A DNA stretch of 64,000 nt from Candidatus Terraquivivens ruidianensis (GTDB lineage Archaea; Thermoproteota; Nitrososphaeria_A; Caldarchaeales; Wolframiiraptoraceae). Each line of letters opens with the position of its first letter. Position 1 is the stretch's first letter. Location of the stretch: the NCBI GenBank assembly GCA_023267975.1, contig JALNLA010000004.1:1-64000 (forward strand). The letters run 5' to 3'. The notes under the pieces are model-generated. The model saw nothing but the letters and a program-made list of their open reading frames with translations. It ran no database searches and was not told where the DNA came from. Shown one piece after another: positions 17,018-45,516 of this stretch. Both the position numbers and the translations under genes were made by a program.

Positions 17018-17497
17018 TCAAACCCAAAGCGTAGGAACTTCCCTGATAACCCGAAGCAAAGCGGCAAAGAGTATTAACGATTTAGCAGTGAATGTAGGGT
17101 TGGAGTATATCTTTGCTAAGGGTTTTACCTTAACTAGTCTGCTCACGAATGCCGTTCCGGGACTCAGCTCCCCGGAAAAGATCTTCCTTGCGACATCGTA
17201 CGTGCTCTCCACGGTGTAGTCAGGATTGACATCGTCGGGTATGTCTTTAGTAACAGCAAACCGTTTGGTCATGCCTTTGTCTAGCTCTACGTAAATCGTC
17301 AGACTTTTGTCAAATGTCTCCTTCAACATATCCGGCAAATCCTTTATCACATACGCCACACTAAGGCTAAAGCCTGACGCTAAAGACATGATTTCTGGGT
17401 CAGTTGACTTTGCCTTCTCGATTGCTATGACGGCTTTACGAACCCAACCCTCTGATAAGAAGTACTCCGCCGCTGACATCATAAGTATAGATAACAA
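17018..17497 (-). CDS. SCP2 sterol-transfer-like domain protein
   Basis: A 159-residue protein that fits the SCP-2 fold: a helical start, the strand pair LTIYVELDKG / RFAVTKDIPDDVNPDYTVEST, then YDVARKIFSGELSPGTAFVSRLVKVKP and a final helix. The FSGELSPGTAFVSRL-KVKP segment is the usual 'x-G-x-D/S-x-x-A-x-x-x-G-x-h-K' region. It would bind hydrophobic ligands such as fatty acids or CoA esters; the true ligand is unknown. It is divergent from a hemerythrin gene across a 62-base region centred on a perfect palindrome. Confidence 0.7.
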   Translation of the reverse strand: MLSILMMSAAEYFLSEGWVRKAVIAIEKAKSTDPEIMSLASGFSLSVAYVIKDLPDMLKETFDKSLTIYVELDKGMTKRFAVTKDIPDDVNPDYTVESTYDVARKIFSGELSPGTAFVSRLVKVKPLAKIYSNPTFTAKSLILFAALLRVIREVPTLWV

Positions 17498-17508
17498 TTT
17501 TCTCTTTT

Positions 17509-17531
17509 TAAACGTAACGGCGTTACGTTTA
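17509..17531. promoter_or_regulatory. 23-base palindromic operator between divergent genes
   Basis: Two perfect 11-base arms, TAAACGTAACG (17509-17519) and CGTTACGTTTA (17521-17531), flank a single G. The right arm runs directly into TTTATATAT (17528-17536), the likely TATA box of the hemerythrin gene (ATG 17560), and the left arm abuts a T-rich TATA-like element for the SCP2 gene on the other strand. A dimeric regulator bound here would block both promoters. Confidence 0.75.
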
Positions 17532-17559
17532 TATATGTCTACTTAGTTAAGTTTTAGAC

Positions 17560-18057
17560 ATGAGCAAAGAATTGGACCCTATTAGAGAGTTAAGGGAGGA
17601 CCATAAAAAAGTCAAGGACTATCTATTGGAGCTAATTGATGCGCTTAACAAAAAAGACGCTCAAAGGTCTCTCGAAATTCTGGTACTGCTCGATAAGCTC
17701 GGAGGACCGCACTTCAGGTTCGAGGAGGAAACCCTGTACCCAACGTTAAAAAAGTTCTTCGGAGAAGAATACTACCAATACCTGCTGAAGGCTCACGATA
17801 GGGTTATCGCTGCAGCTAAAAAAATTGCCGAAATCTTAGGCAAGGGGGCTATTGCGGAAGATGAGGCAAAAATGCTAGTAAGCGTGATTAGGTCAGAGAT
17901 TTTGCCGCACCCCATAGAGTGCGAGGGCCTAACGTTGCTGACGGATAGGTTATCAAAAGAAGAACTTAGGATTATCGCGAAAAATATTGAACTAAGCAGG
18001 AACGAAAACGTCCCTCTACTTGAGTGGGCCGAGACAATTAGGGATAAAAAGGTATAA
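17560..18057 (+). CDS. hemerythrin-like (HHE) protein
   Basis: A 165-residue four-helix-bundle protein with the HHE ligand pattern: DHKKVKDYL (H15), GGPHFRFEEETLYP (His and Glu around 50-55), KAHDRV (about 85) and EILPHPIECEG (His about 123). These supply the histidines and carboxylates for a di-iron site. It may bind oxygen or nitric oxide, or store iron. A TATA box at 17528-17536 is about 28 bases before the ATG, so the transcript is leaderless and controlled by the adjacent palindrome. A DsrE gene follows after five bases in the same operon. Confidence 0.9.
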   Translation: MSKELDPIRELREDHKKVKDYLLELIDALNKKDAQRSLEILVLLDKLGGPHFRFEEETLYPTLKKFFGEEYYQYLLKAHDRVIAAAKKIAEILGKGAIAEDEAKMLVSVIRSEILPHPIECEGLTLLTDRLSKEELRIIAKNIELSRNENVPLLEWAETIRDKKV

Positions 18058-18062
18058 CTAAG

Positions 18063-18467
18063 ATGAAAAAGGTCGCACTGATAGTAAACACAGCGTCCTT
18101 CGAGAGAGTCGCATATGCGCTGTCTTTCGCAGTAGTAGCGGCTGCACGCGGTATCGAAGTGTTTGTGCTCTTTGCGTTTGAAGGTCTATATAGGTTGATT
18201 AAAGGAAATGTTGACGTACTAAGTGATGAGACGAATCCTTTCATAAGAAAAGAAATAGAGTCGGGTTTAAAAAAAGATAGCGTGATGCGAATATCTACAC
18301 TCATAAAGAACCTAAAGTACCTTGGAGGAAAGATATATGCTTGTCCCTCCGCCATGGCCTTACATAATGTGACGAAGGACGACCTTATAGATGATGTTGA
18401 CGGAGTGCTAGGTTTAGCCGCGTTTCTTGAGTCGATAGGTGACGCTTCAACGATTATTTACGTTTAA
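18063..18467 (+). CDS. DsrE-family protein
   Basis: A 134-residue alpha/beta protein with the DsrE/peroxiredoxin-like fold: KKVALIVNTASFERVAYALSFA at the start, a long helical insert with a variable region (55-80), then LKYLGGKIYACPSAMALHNV, where the cysteine lies in the position of the conserved sulfur-carrying Cys. Relatives carry sulfur or reduce disulfides. It follows the hemerythrin by five bases and overlaps the stop of the convergent HTH gene by four bases. It lies close to the sulfur-mobilisation cluster. Confidence 0.82.
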   Translation: MKKVALIVNTASFERVAYALSFAVVAAARGIEVFVLFAFEGLYRLIKGNVDVLSDETNPFIRKEIESGLKKDSVMRISTLIKNLKYLGGKIYACPSAMALHNVTKDDLIDDVDGVLGLAAFLESIGDASTIIYV

Positions 18468-18808
18468 CTTTCTTTTTTTATTTTTGGTGCCTCGCATTTA
18501 GACGATTCGAGTATTCTGCATATCTCGCAGACCATATCGTTTACGGATTCTTTTGAAGCCTCATTTTTAACAATAGCACTAGCCATACGGCTTATTAACT
18601 CACGAACGACAGGGTTCGTTCTCAACCGTCTTATCATTTTAAAGCCGCGCTTTGCAGATAAGTACTGGCTTATCGCTGGCCTCGTGGTCCCGATAATCCT
18701 TGCCACCTCTGTCTGGGATAGCGCATGTTTATCAATAAGCTCTTTAGCTATAAGCGCACGTACTGATGGCATTACGTCGAGGACAAATTTTTCACATGGT
18801 GACCTCAA
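18464..18808 (-). CDS. HTH regulator with cysteine cluster (COG2522-like)
   Basis: A 114-residue protein. Residues about 12-55 are a Cro/XRE-like helix-turn-helix (LSQTEVARIIGTTRPAISQYLSAKRG). Four cysteines are visible: C5 near the N-terminus and a C-terminal CEICRILESSKC, i.e. CxxC-x6-C. This arrangement is typical of COG2522 archaeal regulators that may bind a metal or Fe-S cluster. Its neighbours (hemerythrin, DsrE, E1/TusA/SufS) suggest redox or sulfur sensing. It is a candidate binder of the palindrome at 17509. That link is inference. Confidence 0.8.
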   Translation of the reverse strand: MRSPCEKFVLDVMPSVRALIAKELIDKHALSQTEVARIIGTTRPAISQYLSAKRGFKMIRRLRTNPVVRELISRMASAIVKNEASKESVNDMVCEICRILESSKCEAPKIKKES

Positions 18809-18853
18809 TTTAGAGCCTCAATACGAATAATGAATCATGGGTTAAATATAAAT

Positions 18854-19936
18854 TTACCCACTGACTGGGGGAACGGCAAATTTCTTGACCAATTCATCAT
18901 AAAGTTCCAAAACCGTCTCATCATCGTAAATTCCGGAGCTCGGCGCAACTTGGACCACAGTAACTCCGCCTTTCAAGAACGTTATTGTGACATCTTTTCT
19001 GTACTCGAATGTTATTCCTAGTCTTGTCCTTTTCTTTGGATGTATGCCGTGTTTGGCAAGAAGATGATCGGTAGAATCCAAATCAATCTCCGAGGCGGTT
19101 GTTACCATGAATACACCCCTACCATCCCTTCCACAGACTCCGCTCACGACTTTCTCCTCAAGCGGTCTTGAGACAACCTTGCCGCTTCCACATACGGGAC
19201 AATCAGGCACCCTAGCAATTTTGACAAAATCAAAAGACATCTTGTTAACGTCGATGTAGAGTAGACGATTCTTTAACAGTAGGTCCTTGTTCAGCAGAAC
19301 CCTTACTGCCTCTGACACTTGTACACCAGATACGATGTCTATCAGTGGAGGGAAGACACCGACGATAGCACACTTGGGTAGGTCCTCATCCTGAAGACCG
19401 GAATAAAAACATTCAAGGCAAGCCGTTTCATTAGGTAAGATTGTGGAAACTACTCCGATGGTTTCTATTGCAGCGGCGAATATGTATGGAATCTTAAGCT
19501 TCACGATTGCCCTATTTATTATGTACCTTGCCTCAACGCTGTCAAGACCATCGATTACTATGTCAACACCTTCCAACAACTTTTCAACGTTTTTTGAGGA
19601 GATGTTAGTTGCAACGGCGTCGATTTTCACGTTGGAATTCAAAGAATTTATTCTTTCCTCTAAGACTTCGACTTTCGGCACGCCCACGAAATTTTCCCCA
19701 TAGACCCTCTGCCTATGTAAATCTGACAAAGATACTACGTCCCTATCCACTATTCGAATGTAACCTACACCCATGGCCGCCAGCGTGATTGCAGCAGGCG
19801 AGCCCAGCCCTCCGGCTCCCATTATACAAACTCTGCTGGACTTCAGCTTAGTCTGACCAGCGTAACCGATATAATCGAGTACGAGTTGTCTCGAGTACCT
19901 CTCCAGCTCTTTATCGGTAAGCTCTTCCAATTTCAC
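18854..19936 (-). CDS. ThiF/MoeB-type E1-like adenylyltransferase
   Basis: An about 360-residue E1-like enzyme that adenylates the C-terminus of a ubiquitin-like or sulfur-carrier protein. It has the nucleotide loop GAGGLGS, DRDVVSLSDLHRQ (the D-x5-S-(N/D)-L-x-RQ motif), DGLDSVEAR, catalytic-Cys region LPKCAIVGVF, and zinc pairs CLEC and CPVC. A C-terminal domain of about 100 residues (CGRDGRGVF onward) matches the extension of archaeal E1-like proteins. No rhodanese domain. A GTG at 19936 is preferred because it lies about 30 bases after the TATA box; a TTG at 19951 is too close. It is divergent from tusA-sufS-iscU. No ThiS/MoaD/Urm1-like partner in the window. Confidence 0.88.
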   Translation of the reverse strand: MKLEELTDKELERYSRQLVLDYIGYAGQTKLKSSRVCIMGAGGLGSPAAITLAAMGVGYIRIVDRDVVSLSDLHRQRVYGENFVGVPKVEVLEERINSLNSNVKIDAVATNISSKNVEKLLEGVDIVIDGLDSVEARYIINRAIVKLKIPYIFAAAIETIGVVSTILPNETACLECFYSGLQDEDLPKCAIVGVFPPLIDIVSGVQVSEAVRVLLNKDLLLKNRLLYIDVNKMSFDFVKIARVPDCPVCGSGKVVSRPLEEKVVSGVCGRDGRGVFMVTTASEIDLDSTDHLLAKHGIHPKKRTRLGITFEYRKDVTITFLKGGVTVVQVAPSSGIYDDETVLELYDELVKKFAVPPVSG

Positions 19937-19959
19937 GGACGACGATAACAACGTTAACT

Positions 19960-19986: not shown

Positions 19987-20238
19987 ATGATGGCTTTAAA
20001 ACAGCATATAATTGTGGACGCTCGTTTCAAGTCTTGTCCCGGTCCCTTGATAAGTCTTATCGAAGCAGTCAAGAAAGCCGAACCGGGTCAAGTAATAAAA
20101 CTACTTGCAACTGATCCAGCGTCGCCTATGGACGTTAAAGAGTGGATTAAGAGTACAAAGCATAGGCTGTTAGAAGTGAAAGAAAAAGAGAATGCCTACG
20201 AGATATACGTAGAAGTGGTGGGTGGCGAGCTTGGCTAG
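19987..20238 (+). CDS. TusA/SirA-like sulfur carrier protein
   Basis: An 83-residue protein with the TusA signature at DARFKSCPGPLISLIEAV, where the cysteine of CPGP carries persulfide sulfur, and the strand/helix core VIKLLATDPASPMDVKEWI. It would receive sulfur from the cysteine desulfurase encoded immediately downstream (17-base overlap) and pass it on for thiolation or Fe-S work. Two ATGs in a row start the frame; 19987 is the first. The mRNA is leaderless from the shared TATA. Confidence 0.93.
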   Translation: MMALKQHIIVDARFKSCPGPLISLIEAVKKAEPGQVIKLLATDPASPMDVKEWIKSTKHRLLEVKEKENAYEIYVEVVGGELG

Positions 20239-21475
20239 CGATGTGCGCGTAGGTATAAGAGAGTTGTTAGAGACGCACGGGAAACCTACTAGAGAGGTAT
20301 ACTTAGACTCTGAGAATTCAGGCATGATTTTCCCTGAGGCCTTGAAGTCGATGGTTGATGCATATAAAGAGTCTTTTACTGGTCATCCATCCATCACCCA
20401 CAGGCGTGGCTGGGAATCGTATGAGGCGCTTTACAAAGCATCCTCAAACATAGCTAAATTTATAAACTGTAAACCTGATGAGTTAGCTTTCACGCATAAT
20501 GGTACCGAGGCAAACAACTTAGCAGTTCTTGGGCTAAACAAAGAGAGCGGAAGAAGAAATATAGTCGTTTCAGCGATAGAGCACCTAAGCGTGATCTTCC
20601 CTGCGGAGCAACTCCAGAAGTACGGTTACAAAGTAATAAAGGTACCAGTGGACCAGGAAGGCTTCGTGAATTTGGACTTTTTGATGAACAACGTAGACAA
20701 GGATACGCTATTAGTGAGCGTTGGGGCTGTAAACCACGAGATAGGAACCATACAGGATTTGAGGGCAATAGTGGAATCAGTTAAGGATAAGGATGAAAAC
20801 ATAATATTTCATACGGATGCTTGCGATGCTCTTGGAAGGATAGGCTTAGACGTCAAAAAGCTGAATGTTGACCTAGCATCGTTCAGCAGCCATAAGGTAT
20901 GCGGCCCTAAGGGTGCTGGGGTGCTCTACATAAGAGAGGGGGTTAAGGTGGAACCAATTATACATGGTCAGCTGAGCACGCAGAAATTATGGCCGGGGTT
21001 AGAAAACGTACCAGCCATAGCTGGTTTTGGGAAAGCTATCGAATTGTTTACTTCGAACTTTGATTCATACGTAAACCGTATGACTAAGCTTAGGGACTCA
21101 CTCATTCAAGGCATTTTGTCGAGTGTCGAGTATACGCTTCTAAATGGCCCCTCGGGAAATAAACGTTCACCCGACAACGCTAACGTAAGCGTGCTGTACT
21201 GCGAGGGTGAGGCATTGACCGTGGAGCTTAGCCTTAAGGGCATTTATGTATCCAGCGGAAGTGCATGCACCAGCCGCATTCTACAGCCAAGCCACGTGTT
21301 GCTCGCAATAAGAAGAGAGTTTCATGAGGCGCATGGAAGCATTCTGATGAAGGTAACCCCCCTCCATTCTTATGAGGATGTGCAGTATGTAATCGAGAAC
21401 ATCCCTAGCGTAGTACAGAGGTTAAGGTCTATAAGTCCTCTAAAACCTAAGGAAGGTGGTGAAGATGTCGGATAG
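20222..21475 (+). CDS. cysteine desulfurase (NifS/SufS-type)
   Basis: A 417-residue PLP enzyme converting cysteine to alanine and protein-bound persulfide. The PLP lysine is in SFSSHKVCGPKGAGVL, the substrate histidine in SAIEHLSV and the active cysteine in SSGSACTSR; the long flexible Cys loop with a SGSACTS sequence suggests the IscS/NifS-like class. It overlaps tusA by 17 bases and iscU by about 11, so the three form a translationally coupled operon. Confidence 0.94.
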   Translation: MASLASDVRVGIRELLETHGKPTREVYLDSENSGMIFPEALKSMVDAYKESFTGHPSITHRRGWESYEALYKASSNIAKFINCKPDELAFTHNGTEANNLAVLGLNKESGRRNIVVSAIEHLSVIFPAEQLQKYGYKVIKVPVDQEGFVNLDFLMNNVDKDTLLVSVGAVNHEIGTIQDLRAIVESVKDKDENIIFHTDACDALGRIGLDVKKLNVDLASFSSHKVCGPKGAGVLYIREGVKVEPIIHGQLSTQKLWPGLENVPAIAGFGKAIELFTSNFDSYVNRMTKLRDSLIQGILSSVEYTLLNGPSGNKRSPDNANVSVLYCEGEALTVELSLKGIYVSSGSACTSRILQPSHVLLAIRREFHEAHGSILMKVTPLHSYEDVQYVIENIPSVVQRLRSISPLKPKEGGEDVG

Positions 21476-21977
21476 AATACCCTTACCCTATACACCAAAA
21501 GTTCTTGAGCTCTTTAAAAACCCGAAAAATTTAGGGAAGATGGTGGATGCGAACGCTTCGGCGATGGCGGGGAGTCTTGCATGTGGGGACATGATCGCCA
21601 TATACCTTAAGATAGACGATGAAACGCAAACGATACTTAACGCCACTTTCGAGAGCTACGGATGCGCAGCCAACATAGCCGCATCGAGCATACTGACAGA
21701 GATGCTTAAGGGTAAAAAACTGGAGGATGCGTGGAAAATCTCATGGAAAGATGTATCGAGTGAGCTTGGAGGGTTACCAACCGTCAAGTACCACTGCGGT
21801 GTGATGGCCGTGGGTGCTTTCAGAAGAGCAGTCAGGGGATACTTCAAGAATAAGCAAAAACCGGAATGGATTCCAGAGGAGTTAACGGCGGAAGAAAGGC
21901 ACGTCGTTGAAGAGGAGAAGCTCGTCGAGATACTCTCTAAAAGGATGTCGTCTGGCTCATTGCCGCCAACTTGCTAA
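21465..21977 (+). CDS. IscU/NifU-type Fe-S scaffold protein
   Basis: About 170 residues with the three IscU cysteine motifs: GSLACGD, ESYGCAAN and VKYHCGVMA (the D of the first motif and the HC pair of the third are the usual ligands). A C-terminal tail of about 50 residues ends in a cysteine (LPPTC). ATG 21465 is preferred over GTG 21456 because GGAAGGTGGT sits directly upstream as an SD. It receives sulfur from the upstream desulfurase. The operon ends near tRNA-Asn, which lies on the other strand. Confidence 0.93.
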   Translation: MSDRIPLPYTPKVLELFKNPKNLGKMVDANASAMAGSLACGDMIAIYLKIDDETQTILNATFESYGCAANIAASSILTEMLKGKKLEDAWKISWKDVSSELGGLPTVKYHCGVMAVGAFRRAVRGYFKNKQKPEWIPEELTAEERHVVEEEKLVEILSKRMSSGSLPPTC

Positions 21978-27963: not shown

Positions 27964-29394
27964 ATGGCAAAAATCTACACACCACTCCTGATAGCAGCCT
28001 TGTCGCTATGTATCCGATTGATCGCATTATTCTTCATTAGTCCGTTAGATTTTCGCTGGGAATCCTACCATTATTGGCAAATAGCGTTTTATACATTAAA
28101 TGTAGGTATCCATCATGGCAAAATGTGGGATTTGGGTGGAATGGAATACTTTTGGGGTCCCCTTCCAATACTTACTCAGTCATTGCTATTATGGATATTC
28201 AATACTACTTCACTTTTACCCTTTCGAATTCTGAACTCAATATTAGGAAGCATAACCGTTTATCTATCATATAAAATAGGTAAACGCTTCTTTAACAGAA
28301 GGGTGGGAATATTGTCTGCCCTTCTACTTACGTTTAACCCCATAATGATATTCAACAATGTCGTAGGTATGGAAGAAACTATGGGAATATTCTTCGTTCT
28401 ATTGGCATTAAATTTCTATCATAAAAACGATTATATAATGGGTGTTTTTCTCGGGCTAAGCTCATTATGTAGAATAGAATTCTGGCTCTTATCTCTTGGT
28501 ATAGCATTTCTCATAGTATTATATGAACGGGACGCATCCTCGTTCATTATCTCAATTGTTGGATGGTTAACAGTGATGGTTCCATATTTTCTTCATGTCA
28601 GAGAAGTTACAGGCAGTCCATTTTACGCATTTTACTGGAACTTTATAGGTAATATAGCCGGAATATGGACCCCATGGTACGTCAGCCCTACTTTTAGAAT
28701 CCTTTTCGGCGTCATTTTAGCCTGCTCGGTGATAGGTCTCATCATACTTTTTAGGTATAGGGAAAAGCTGAAGAAAACTTACATACTTTACGGTGTTTTC
28801 CTCGGATTTGCAACTTATCATGGCCTGGTATATGTGATTGGCGGAACTGCTCCATTATTTGACAGGTTCTTCATGTTAGATGTGGCGGTAGGCTCCATTC
28901 TTCTAAGCTCCATTAGCCAGAAAACACCATGGCCAAGACTTTCCACTGCAGCTCTATTTATTCTCACAGGATTCTTACTTTACTCTCTCACCCCGTATTA
29001 TACTGACCTTCAATCTGATATAGTTGGTCTCTACAAAGTTACCGATGAACTCGGAAAGCGTTATGATGGTGGAACTGTATTATCTAATATGCCGATGATG
29101 ACTTATAGGCTTGTAAACTTATGGGGTCTTTCTCATAATGAAATCTTAGGAACTTTGTACATTCCGCTTAATAACATCACTCAAGCATTAACCTGGTTAG
29201 ACTACTACAATGCCTCATGGCTTATAGTGGCTGAGCCAAAGTCCCAAAATATGTTATCTGTCTTTAAACAACATTTTCCATTGATATGGAGTAAGTTATT
29301 TATAAAAGAGTTTGAGTTCAGCGGCGCAGCGATTTACAGAATAAATCAAAGTCTTACGCGCGAGCTAATATATGGAGGAGGAAAATATGAATGA
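27964..29394 (+). CDS. GT-C-like membrane glycosyltransferase (PMT/GT39-type)
   Basis: A 476-residue protein with about 9-10 membrane helices. The first outer loop contains a D/E-rich motif (SPLDFRWESYHYWQIAF) and HHGKMWDLGGMEYFWGPLP, like the sugar-donor site of GT-C enzymes. The rest follows the GT39 pattern FNRRVGILSALLLTFNPIMIF and a short soluble C-terminal domain (about 385-476). It would transfer a sugar from a lipid-linked donor at the outer membrane face. It starts 10 bases after the methyltransferase, so it is co-transcribed. Confidence 0.72.
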   Translation: MAKIYTPLLIAALSLCIRLIALFFISPLDFRWESYHYWQIAFYTLNVGIHHGKMWDLGGMEYFWGPLPILTQSLLLWIFNTTSLLPFRILNSILGSITVYLSYKIGKRFFNRRVGILSALLLTFNPIMIFNNVVGMEETMGIFFVLLALNFYHKNDYIMGVFLGLSSLCRIEFWLLSLGIAFLIVLYERDASSFIISIVGWLTVMVPYFLHVREVTGSPFYAFYWNFIGNIAGIWTPWYVSPTFRILFGVILACSVIGLIILFRYREKLKKTYILYGVFLGFATYHGLVYVIGGTAPLFDRFFMLDVAVGSILLSSISQKTPWPRLSTAALFILTGFLLYSLTPYYTDLQSDIVGLYKVTDELGKRYDGGTVLSNMPMMTYRLVNLWGLSHNEILGTLYIPLNNITQALTWLDYYNASWLIVAEPKSQNMLSVFKQHFPLIWSKLFIKEFEFSGAAIYRINQSLTRELIYGGGKYE

Positions 29395-43750: not shown

Positions 43751-45516
43751 TTTGCTACCCTTCTGTAGTTCGTCGGCTTGAGTGCTCCAGCCAACGTTTC
43801 AGATATGCTCTTTATATTTACCTCGCATATTCTGTATAACTCCTCGTAAACCTTTAGAGCCTGCTCGAGGCATTCCTCGTAAGACTTGGTCCCTTTGCTG
43901 ACTATATCCATAAGCTCCTCAACAAATTTTCTTGTATCAGGCGTAACGAGCCTCTCATCCACACCAGACAAAGTCTCGATGAGCCTCATGCCTAGCTCCG
44001 TCGGGTAGAAGGTCCTGCCCTTCTTCACGGCATAGCCCCTTTCTATCACTATCCTAGGATACTCAGCGCGTGTGGCATCTGTTCCTATTCTGTTCTTTTC
44101 CATGAGCCCCAGCAGCATCGCCTCAGTGAGCCTCGAGGGAGGCTTGGTCTTGTCCTCCTTTAACTCCAACCCAATCACCTCCAAGCTATCGCCTGGCGAT
44201 AGCTTAGGCATGGGCGCATCTTTGGGCATGAAGTATTCGAATATCTCGAAGAATCCTTTCCGGGTAACAACGGCGCCCGATGCCTTGACCGCAGCCTCTC
44301 CTACCCTTATCTCCGCAGCGCTCTCCTTCAACTCAGCATCATCAAACAGTACGTTGGCGGCAAACCTCTTTGCTATGTATTCCCAGACCTTTCGCTTAAG
44401 CGAACCGTCTTCAGGGTATGGCTTTATAGGGTATATGGGAGGATGAGCACCGTCGTCCTTTTTTCCGTTAAACGGCTCGACCCTCCTTCTGCTTAGGTCT
44501 CCGAGCACCTCGGATAAATCGGACTCAGCCAGAGCCTTTAGGGGTTCTCTAAAGTCGAAGTCATACCTGAACCTGTTGGTCTCCGTTCTTGGATAAGAGC
44601 AGAAACCCTCAGCATAGAGCTCCTCTGCCACGGAGAGCAGCGTGGCCGCCGAGGTGCCCGTTATCTTTGTTAGGTCTTTCAGGAGCGCGTCCGTATCGAG
44701 GGGCAAGGGTCTGCGAATCGTCTTTTCCTTCTCATCATAGGACAGGACGTGCCCGGTCTTTTGTCCTTCGACACTTTTCCATACGGCCTTGGCTTTCTCG
44801 GCATCCCTCATGTTTTCGCTCTTGGCCTCAAACTCCTCGCCGTCCTTCGTCCTGAGCTTTACCCAAATGTACCAGAACGGCTCGGGCTTGAAAGACCTTA
44901 TTTCCTTCTCCCGCTTTACGATAAAGCCCAGAGTAGGAGATTGGCAGGAGCCCCACGATATGAGCCTGACGTTTTGGTGCTTCCTTGTTTCTTTTGTGAG
45001 AAGCCTCGTGAAGGCAGCGCCTGTCACGAGGTCGAAGTGCTGCCTGAGCATGGCCTTCATGACCCAGTTCATGTTCAAGGAATCTTCCAAGTTGTTCCAC
45101 GCCCTCCAGAGCTCACCCGGGTTCGTCGAGTTGAACCTCATCCGCTTGTATGGTGCTTGGTCGCCCTTACTGGCCCTATAGATTGAGAGTATCTCATAGC
45201 CAATCAGCTCTCCCTCCGAGTCGTTGTCCGTCGCTACGATGAGTAGCCCATCCTTTTCGAATGCCTTCTTCAGCTCCTTGTAAGATCTTTCATCGGAAAT
45301 AACGTTCCTAAATTCTCTGACCGAAAAGAGCTTTGATGGGTCGACGCTGTTCCACTCATAACCCTCGGGGAAGTCTGCGTTGAACACGTGTCCCCTAACT
45401 GAGGTAACGAGTGCGTTTACGCCCCTGCTCTTCAGCAGCCTCGCTATACTCCTTGCGACGCTCGGCTTTTCCGCCACGACTATGTAAGGATTTGCGCCGT
45501 CCTCGTCCACGTGCAT
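43723..45516 (-). CDS. type IA DNA topoisomerase
   Basis: A 597-residue topoisomerase III-like enzyme. TOPRIM residues are in YIVVAEKPSVARSIARLL and ATDNDSEGELIGYEI (Asp-x-Asp-x-Glu). The active tyrosine is in GFCSYPRTETNRF, with KDDGAHPPIYP and RLTEAMLLGLMEKNRIGTDATRAEYP further on. No C-terminal zinc fingers and no helicase domain, so it is not reverse gyrase. It relaxes negatively supercoiled DNA and resolves recombination or replication intermediates. The 3' end overlaps dphB convergently by 28 bases. Confidence 0.95.
   Translation of the reverse strand: MHVDEDGANPYIVVAEKPSVARSIARLLKSRGVNALVTSVRGHVFNADFPEGYEWNSVDPSKLFSVREFRNVISDERSYKELKKAFEKDGLLIVATDNDSEGELIGYEILSIYRASKGDQAPYKRMRFNSTNPGELWRAWNNLEDSLNMNWVMKAMLRQHFDLVTGAAFTRLLTKETRKHQNVRLISWGSCQSPTLGFIVKREKEIRSFKPEPFWYIWVKLRTKDGEEFEAKSENMRDAEKAKAVWKSVEGQKTGHVLSYDEKEKTIRRPLPLDTDALLKDLTKITGTSAATLLSVAEELYAEGFCSYPRTETNRFRYDFDFREPLKALAESDLSEVLGDLSRRRVEPFNGKKDDGAHPPIYPIKPYPEDGSLKRKVWEYIAKRFAANVLFDDAELKESAAEIRVGEAAVKASGAVVTRKGFFEIFEYFMPKDAPMPKLSPGDSLEVIGLELKEDKTKPPSRLTEAMLLGLMEKNRIGTDATRAEYPRIVIERGYAVKKGRTFYPTELGMRLIETLSGVDERLVTPDTRKFVEELMDIVSKGTKSYEECLEQALKVYEELYRICEVNIKSISETLAGALKPTNYRRVANYGFQSKST

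Follow-up and report, generated by a model that had tools for sequence, protein, structure and literature searches.

Archaea have few known transcription factors that sense redox state or sulfur. The bacterial Fe-S regulators IscR and SufR, of the Rrf2 and ArsR-like winged-helix families respectively, exert autoregulated control of desulfurase, IscU and SUF genes, with a few cysteines as probable ligands. ThiR, an archaeal thiamine regulator of the XRE-ThiN type, has a related HTH in a longer protein with an effector domain. As archaeal redox- and sulfur-sensing regulators, a paper from 2022 names MsvR and SurR, to which it adds OxsR (PMC9426492). MsvR and OxsR are presented there as redox regulators with thiol-based switching, from the ArsR and TrmB families (PMC9426492). 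SurR, from Thermococcales, is described as sulfur-responsive, switching through a CxxC and having a palindromic operator both at sulfur genes and at its own gene (PMC12162507, PMC9426492); it is an ArsR-type winged-helix protein with the CxxC in its DNA-binding domain, the motif GTTn3AAC(n5GTT) and hydrogenase targets (PMC12162507).

Here we describe a palindrome between two divergent archaeal genes which, from comparison of sequences, is real and conserved, and probably a control switch common to sulfur-handling, Fe-S and hemerythrin genes in many archaea. We propose, with a probability of about 0.75, that it is the operator of an archaeal regulon for sulfur trafficking and Fe-S homeostasis, most likely bound by a dimer of a nearby HTH protein that would repress both promoters. 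This proposal draws on direct observations of promoter anatomy, conservation, motif sharing and occurrence of the motif at the regulator's own promoters; binding, dimerisation, repression and signal are the proposed part. A literature search of titles and abstract openings, with most subscription journals outside its scope, returned no description of this operator or regulon. The features of the locus, within the 64-kb stretch of DNA analysed (the window), are as follows.

17018-17482, minus strand: SCP2-fold protein, from predicted structure; the longest ORF starts at 17497
17504-17512, minus strand: TATA box of the SCP2-like gene, TTTAAAAAG, from sequence, 30 nt upstream of the ATG at 17482; putative start site
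17509-17531, no strand: perfect 11-1-11 palindrome, comprising the putative operator core with the inner ends of a symmetric pair of TATA boxes; from sequence, conserved in G005 and G001
17515-17525, no strand: putative operator core TAACGGCGTTA (TAACNNNGTTA), the first-ranked 4-bp-arm palindrome across 11 hemerythrin promoters, present in 9 of them
17528-17535, plus strand: TATA box of the hemerythrin-DsrE operon, TTTATATA, from sequence, 32 nt before the ATG; putative start site
17560-18057, plus strand: hemerythrin-domain protein, 165 aa (PF01814, E 2.3e-9)
18063-18467, plus strand: DsrE-family protein, 134 aa (PF13686, E 5.9e-11; PF02635)
18464-18808, minus strand: HTH_3/XRE regulator, 114 aa, with Cys5 and C94-x-x-C97, proposed operator binder (PF01381, E 4.2e-5)
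18854-19951, minus strand: ThiF/E1-like protein (PF00899, E 6.9e-71)
19946-19956, no strand: putative second operator core TAACAACGTTA, within the promoter region that separates the divergent ThiF-HTH and TusA-desulfurase-NifU genes, conserved in G003, G005 and G001
19987-20238, plus strand: TusA-like sulfur carrier (PF01206, E 7.7e-21)
20222-21475, plus strand: class-V aminotransferase (PF00266, E 1.1e-61)
21456-21977, plus strand: NifU/IscU-type Fe-S scaffold (PF01592, E 2.3e-39)

The hemerythrin and DsrE labels of the initial annotation held in the Pfam searches. Its SCP2 label was borne out by the predicted structure of the protein (154 aa, pTM 0.77), which has no Pfam or NCBIfam match and whose fold matches sterol carrier protein 2 (Foldseek E-values of 1.4e-7 to 1wfr and 1.8e-7 to 2cx7). 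A similar SCP2-like gene adjoins hemerythrin/DsrE at four other loci (L011, L067, L068 and L069). The class-V aminotransferase is probably a cysteine desulfurase, judging from its neighbour genes, and the ThiF/E1-like gene is probably co-transcribed with the HTH gene, from which it is separated by 45 bp. No defence-system match was found for four genes of the locus. An imperfect palindrome, TGGGTTAAATATAAATTTACCCA, at approximately 18838-18860 (17838-18865 region), lies at the ThiF stop codon directly upstream of the HTH gene and may be an internal HTH promoter element.

The palindrome at 17509-17531 reads TAAACGTAACG-G-CGTTACGTTTA, exactly as first reported. It is two-layered, with a centre of TAAC-GGC-GTTA (17515-17525) and outer ends formed by two mirror-image TATA-like boxes. 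The initial annotation had described it as merging into the hemerythrin TATA box; its outer arm indeed overlaps TTTATATA, and there is a second, mirror box, TTTAAAAAG, on the SCP2 side; the outer arms are best taken as a pair of TATA boxes. Each box is 8 bp away from the dyad, with a start codon at a distance of 30-32 nt, and both transcripts are therefore probably leaderless. This layout also suggests a candidate repressor site that would cover the BRE of both promoters. The core ends within 2-3 bp of each TATA box, in the expected place of BRE/TFB.

Perfect 11-base arms are not extraordinary by themselves, and the original claim that the palindrome is far beyond chance stands on its conservation in relatives instead. 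Two perfect inverted repeats with arms of at least 11 and gaps of 0-3 occur in the window (17509-17531 and 44183-44205), and one of 15 Markov-resampled windows contained such a repeat. The palindrome is kept in 3/3 genomes of the genus that have the divergent SCP2/hemerythrin pair. It is raised above chance because, in both relatives with this gene pair (G005 and G001), TTTAAAYGTAACGSCGTTACGTTTA is found at the orthologous position while the spacer around it has diverged. The second perfect 11-1-11 palindrome of the window (AAGCTATCGCC/GGCGATAGCTT, 44183-44205) lies within a 597-aa ORF and is probably due to chance.

At other promoters of the same genome, where the initial annotation had suggested looking for the palindrome, the 11-13 bp core recurs but the full 23-bp form does not. 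A search of the 1.30 Mb genome for AAACGTAACNNNGTTACGTTT with up to three mismatches found no further site, ruling out the full palindrome as a genome-wide regulon motif; GTAACGNCGTTAC with one mismatch was also rejected as a regulon motif, its counts being equal to background. Absence upstream of orthologues had been named as grounds for refutation: the site is present at close orthologues but missing at five of 14 hemerythrin loci, which are more distant.

To rank palindromes at hemerythrin promoters, all those with 4-bp arms and gaps of 0-8 were scored in the 150-bp upstream regions of 11 hemerythrin genes. TAAC-N3-GTTA ranked first, being present in nine of them (0.1-1.1% per promoter in shuffles), and the next-best palindrome was present in five, mostly as other registers of the same sites. 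Of the nine positive genes, three are orthologous genes of a single genus. The remaining six, at ~49-63% identity, are the second G001 copy and those of G002, G018, G319, G297 and L013, a contig of the Desulfurococcales; L213 duplicates the L013 gene and was counted once. The core is absent upstream of the hemerythrin genes of L011 (Geothermarchaeota) and L012 (Chloroflexi), and was found near none of three out-of-sample distant hemerythrins (G442, G485 and G513; 56, 39 and 29% identity to the query). In total, it lies upstream of 9/14 hemerythrin genes examined and, in the window, between two symmetric TATA boxes. The first G001 hemerythrin copy (L009; G001:C1:93451-93903) has internal stops and an intact operator sequence; the second is intact, lies elsewhere in the genome and has its own.

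The core is also found in promoters of ThiF-like, TusA, DsrE, cysteine desulfurase, NifU/IscU, SufC, Mrp/NBP35, CDGSH, FTR1 and YedE genes in several archaeal lineages, and the second core of the window (19946-19956) is kept in 4/4 genomes checked. A 47-kb contig of G297 (C7) has eight RTAACNNNGTTAY sites against 0.34 expected, all of which precede sulfur, iron or hemerythrin genes: ThiF-like, Cys/Met lyase, PP-loop ATPase, FTR1, hemerythrin-DsrE, TusA, YedE and a NifU-(82 aa)-desulfurase-TusA-HTH operon. G398 has 32 WTAACNNNGTTAW sites against 7.9 expected. In 16 regions of G398 examined, where some sites are within ORFs, promoter sites precede a SufS-like desulfurase, SufC, YedE, a cysteine-synthase-like PLP enzyme and a weak TusA match (below the Pfam cut-off); further promoter sites precede CDGSH, Mrp/NBP35, a radical SAM protein, a VIT-family protein, UbiA and the HTH gene. 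Promoter sites were likewise found at desulfurase, sulfite reductase/PLP enzyme and FTR1 genes in G018, at DsrE in G001, and at TusA/JAMM and a YHS-domain P-type ATPase in G000. The G000 TusA/JAMM site (C1:124244) has no counterpart at the TusA orthologues of G005, G003, G001 and G018, which come after a DsrE gene instead.

Strict sites (ATAACN3GTTAT) fall at promoters in 9/15 cases in G398, 8/12 in G297, 5/7 in G018 and 4/6 in five other genomes of the genus pooled, against a promoter background of 8-10% for these and of 6-10% with G319 and G000 included; this comparison concerns position alone, in stretches picked because they bear sites. Promoter location was not significant in G319 (1/6) or, for the strict form, in G000 (1/2). 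Genome-wide raw counts over 61 relatives showed no excess (377 sites vs 400 for the reversed pattern) and were discarded as proof of a regulon. In the source genome, three of the eight RTAACNNNGTTAY sites are at promoters and the remainder are in ORFs. A third TAACNNNGTTA in the window (29189-29199) is within a 476-aa ORF, with 1.05 expected by chance per window.

The best candidate for the regulator is the 114-aa HTH protein encoded at 18464-18808, the one that the initial annotation had named as Cys-bearing. It has Cys5 at the N-terminus and C94-x-x-C97 at the C-terminus. It matches HTH_3 above the Pfam threshold (PF01381, 23.9 bits vs a cut-off of 23), its predicted structure is helix-only with moderate confidence (pTM 0.70), and it has no PDB match at E ≤0.001. 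Homologues are present in 57/61 relatives, often as two or three per genome with long forms included, and in 187 of 398 genomes in a phylum-wide sample (E ≤1e-12). In most short forms a PCE motif lies close to the N-terminus and a CxxC close to the C-terminus, with the three cysteines conserved; the pattern is not followed in G014, G018, G034 and G398, the last of which has an HTH protein without the N-terminal cysteine.

In a discovery set of 34 HTH loci, the core was the first-ranked palindrome both within 200 bp directly upstream of the gene (8/34) and upstream of the computed operon head (11/34, a count that leaves out the G005 and G060 sites because a start or chain was misplaced). Fifty fresh short-form loci were then chosen by similarity to the G026 protein. 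The core was found within 250 bp upstream in 14 of these, with 10 among the 20 closest and 4 among the 30 further homologues. Within a genus or family, loci are not independent of one another. The exact core was missing within this distance from the other 36 promoters. Eleven of the 14 cores lie at -10 to -45, mostly ~30 bp before the start, a position that fits repression of the HTH gene by its product. AT-rich palindromes rank above the core in the last 60 bp of the 50 fresh loci. Many of the remaining fresh loci, in several families (G190, G140, G339, G101, G239, G379, G229, G078 and G088), have a near-palindrome, TATAAGCRTGTTATA, that replaces the core ~30 bp before the HTH gene and is possibly a clade-specific operator variant; it was left out of the counts because such AT-rich palindromes are also common in long-form promoters.

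Among long forms of 310-340 aa, which may be ThiR-like, the core is upstream in one of 10, at -200. Three other long HTH proteins of 252-262 aa (L053, L055 and L056, from G011, G019 and G008) have no Cys sensor and carry an extension that Pfam does not recognise and that appears ferritin-like by eye only. In G011 and G008 a TAACNNNGTTA core lies 84-86 bp upstream of the long HTH gene, and G019 also has one just upstream of the gene.

G003 has the permease, HTH, ThiF, TusA, desulfurase and NifU genes in the same order as the window, but the 1454-bp SCP2/hemerythrin/DsrE stretch is replaced by 414 bp (L063); the HTH gene and the second operator sequence persist. The idea that the HTH gene is confined to hemerythrin genomes is thereby ruled out, and the hemerythrin module would therefore be an optional member of the sulfur regulon rather than what the regulator exists for. 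The module moves INDEPENDENTLY, and its absence from G003 (L063) represents gain or loss of a cassette.

In the mechanism that we propose, a dimer of the 18464-18808 protein, or of a paralogue, would bind a core of the type WATAAC-N3-GTTATW, present here in the GTAAC-N3-GTTAC form. Since this core lies between TATA boxes placed 8 bp either side of the dyad, one dimer would mask both promoters: bound at 17509-17531, it would cover the BRE/TATA of both genes and block TBP/TFB, so that a single site would silence both the SCP2-like gene and the hemerythrin-DsrE operon. The regulator would also control the adjoining ThiF, TusA, desulfurase and NifU genes as well as its own gene. Sulfur, redox or Fe-S status would probably be sensed through the N-terminal Cys and the C-terminal CxxC, and the DNA would be released when sulfur or Fe-S supply must change; oxygen status may also be the signal. 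The initial annotation had likewise proposed a single dimer site for both genes and a redox or sulfur switch, a view supported by the conservation of the site and by the recurrence of the core at sulfur and Fe-S promoters and ahead of the genes of HTH homologues.

A dimer at this site could instead be an activator that recruits TBP/TFB to both promoters. OxsR is described as activating or repressing depending on the position of its site relative to BRE/TATA (PMC9426492), and the core is here upstream of both TATA boxes; it ends, however, within 2-3 bp of them, in the expected place of BRE/TFB, and in most HTH promoters that carry the site it lies at ~-30, over or just past the TATA region. We therefore consider activation unlikely, if a serious contender. 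It is distinctly unlikely that the operator is real but bound by a different protein (e.g. an ArsR/SurR-like or Lrp-like one), with the HTH gene merely regulated. An upstream site does mark HTH genes as targets without showing that they bind, G003 has the HTH gene without the hemerythrin module, and the HTH genes of G319 and G400 lack the core in their own promoters. Yet a site at the HTH's own promoter in many families, tightly placed at ~-30, is the usual sign of autoregulation, the HTH gene of G003 is retained together with its second target site and so still has a target there, and the SurR-type operator GTTn3AAC is absent from 17485-17560.

The overlap of the outer arms with two TATA-like boxes would also be expected if there were no operator, and the palindrome consisted of the core promoter elements of two divergent genes, in mirror image and conserved to serve basal transcription alone. 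This is very improbable: TAAC-N3-GTTA, at the centre, belongs to no TATA box, and it also turns up in single promoters without a divergent partner. A chance palindrome, for which the second perfect 11-base-arm palindrome within an ORF of the same 64 kb might speak, is scarcely credible given that the orthologous site is kept in 3/3 genomes and also occurs in distant relatives.

If confirmed, the HTH protein would be a regulator not described before. A defined operator, a candidate regulator found in 187 of the 398 sampled genomes and a target list make control of sulfur carriers and Fe-S assembly in the phylum directly testable. The putative operator also places hemerythrin, DsrE and the SCP2-like protein in sulfur/Fe-S or oxidative physiology, and offers clues to the function of uncharacterised neighbour genes. 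More tentatively, at a little under even odds, this may be a global sulfur/Fe-S regulator in much of the Thermoproteota-type archaea, in which PCE...CxxC HTH_3/XRE proteins would act on a universal WATAAC-N3-GTTATW, alongside sister forms, on the same operator, in which the Cys sensor gives way to a long, perhaps ferritin-like C-terminal extension (252-267 aa). One operator grammar would then serve sulfur, Fe-S and iron signals.

Compared with ThiR, the window HTH protein is short, and the long forms have the core upstream in only the one case of 10. Thiol-based switching, here proposed, would be shared with MsvR and OxsR, while family, operators and targets differ. The Rrf2 domain of IscR is absent from the HTH protein (Pfam, NCBIfam), and no sequence relation to the bacterial IscR and SufR came to light. 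Sites precede SufC, SufS-like, NifU, Mrp and HTH genes, which would be regulated in a manner resembling the IscR and SufR systems, and the protein has a few cysteines as candidate ligands. With respect to SurR, the window protein is of the HTH_3/XRE family, with no ArsR-like winged-helix match above the Pfam/NCBIfam cut-offs (HTH_metalloreg, E 0.043, is below cut-off), and its CxxC is in a C-terminal helix. The putative operator is AACn3GTT, with half-sites in the opposite order, and the candidate targets are sulfur-carrier and Fe-S assembly genes, not hydrogenases. Like SurR, the protein combines a CxxC with a palindromic operator sequence at sulfur-gene promoters and at its own promoters, and a response to sulfur is proposed for it here.
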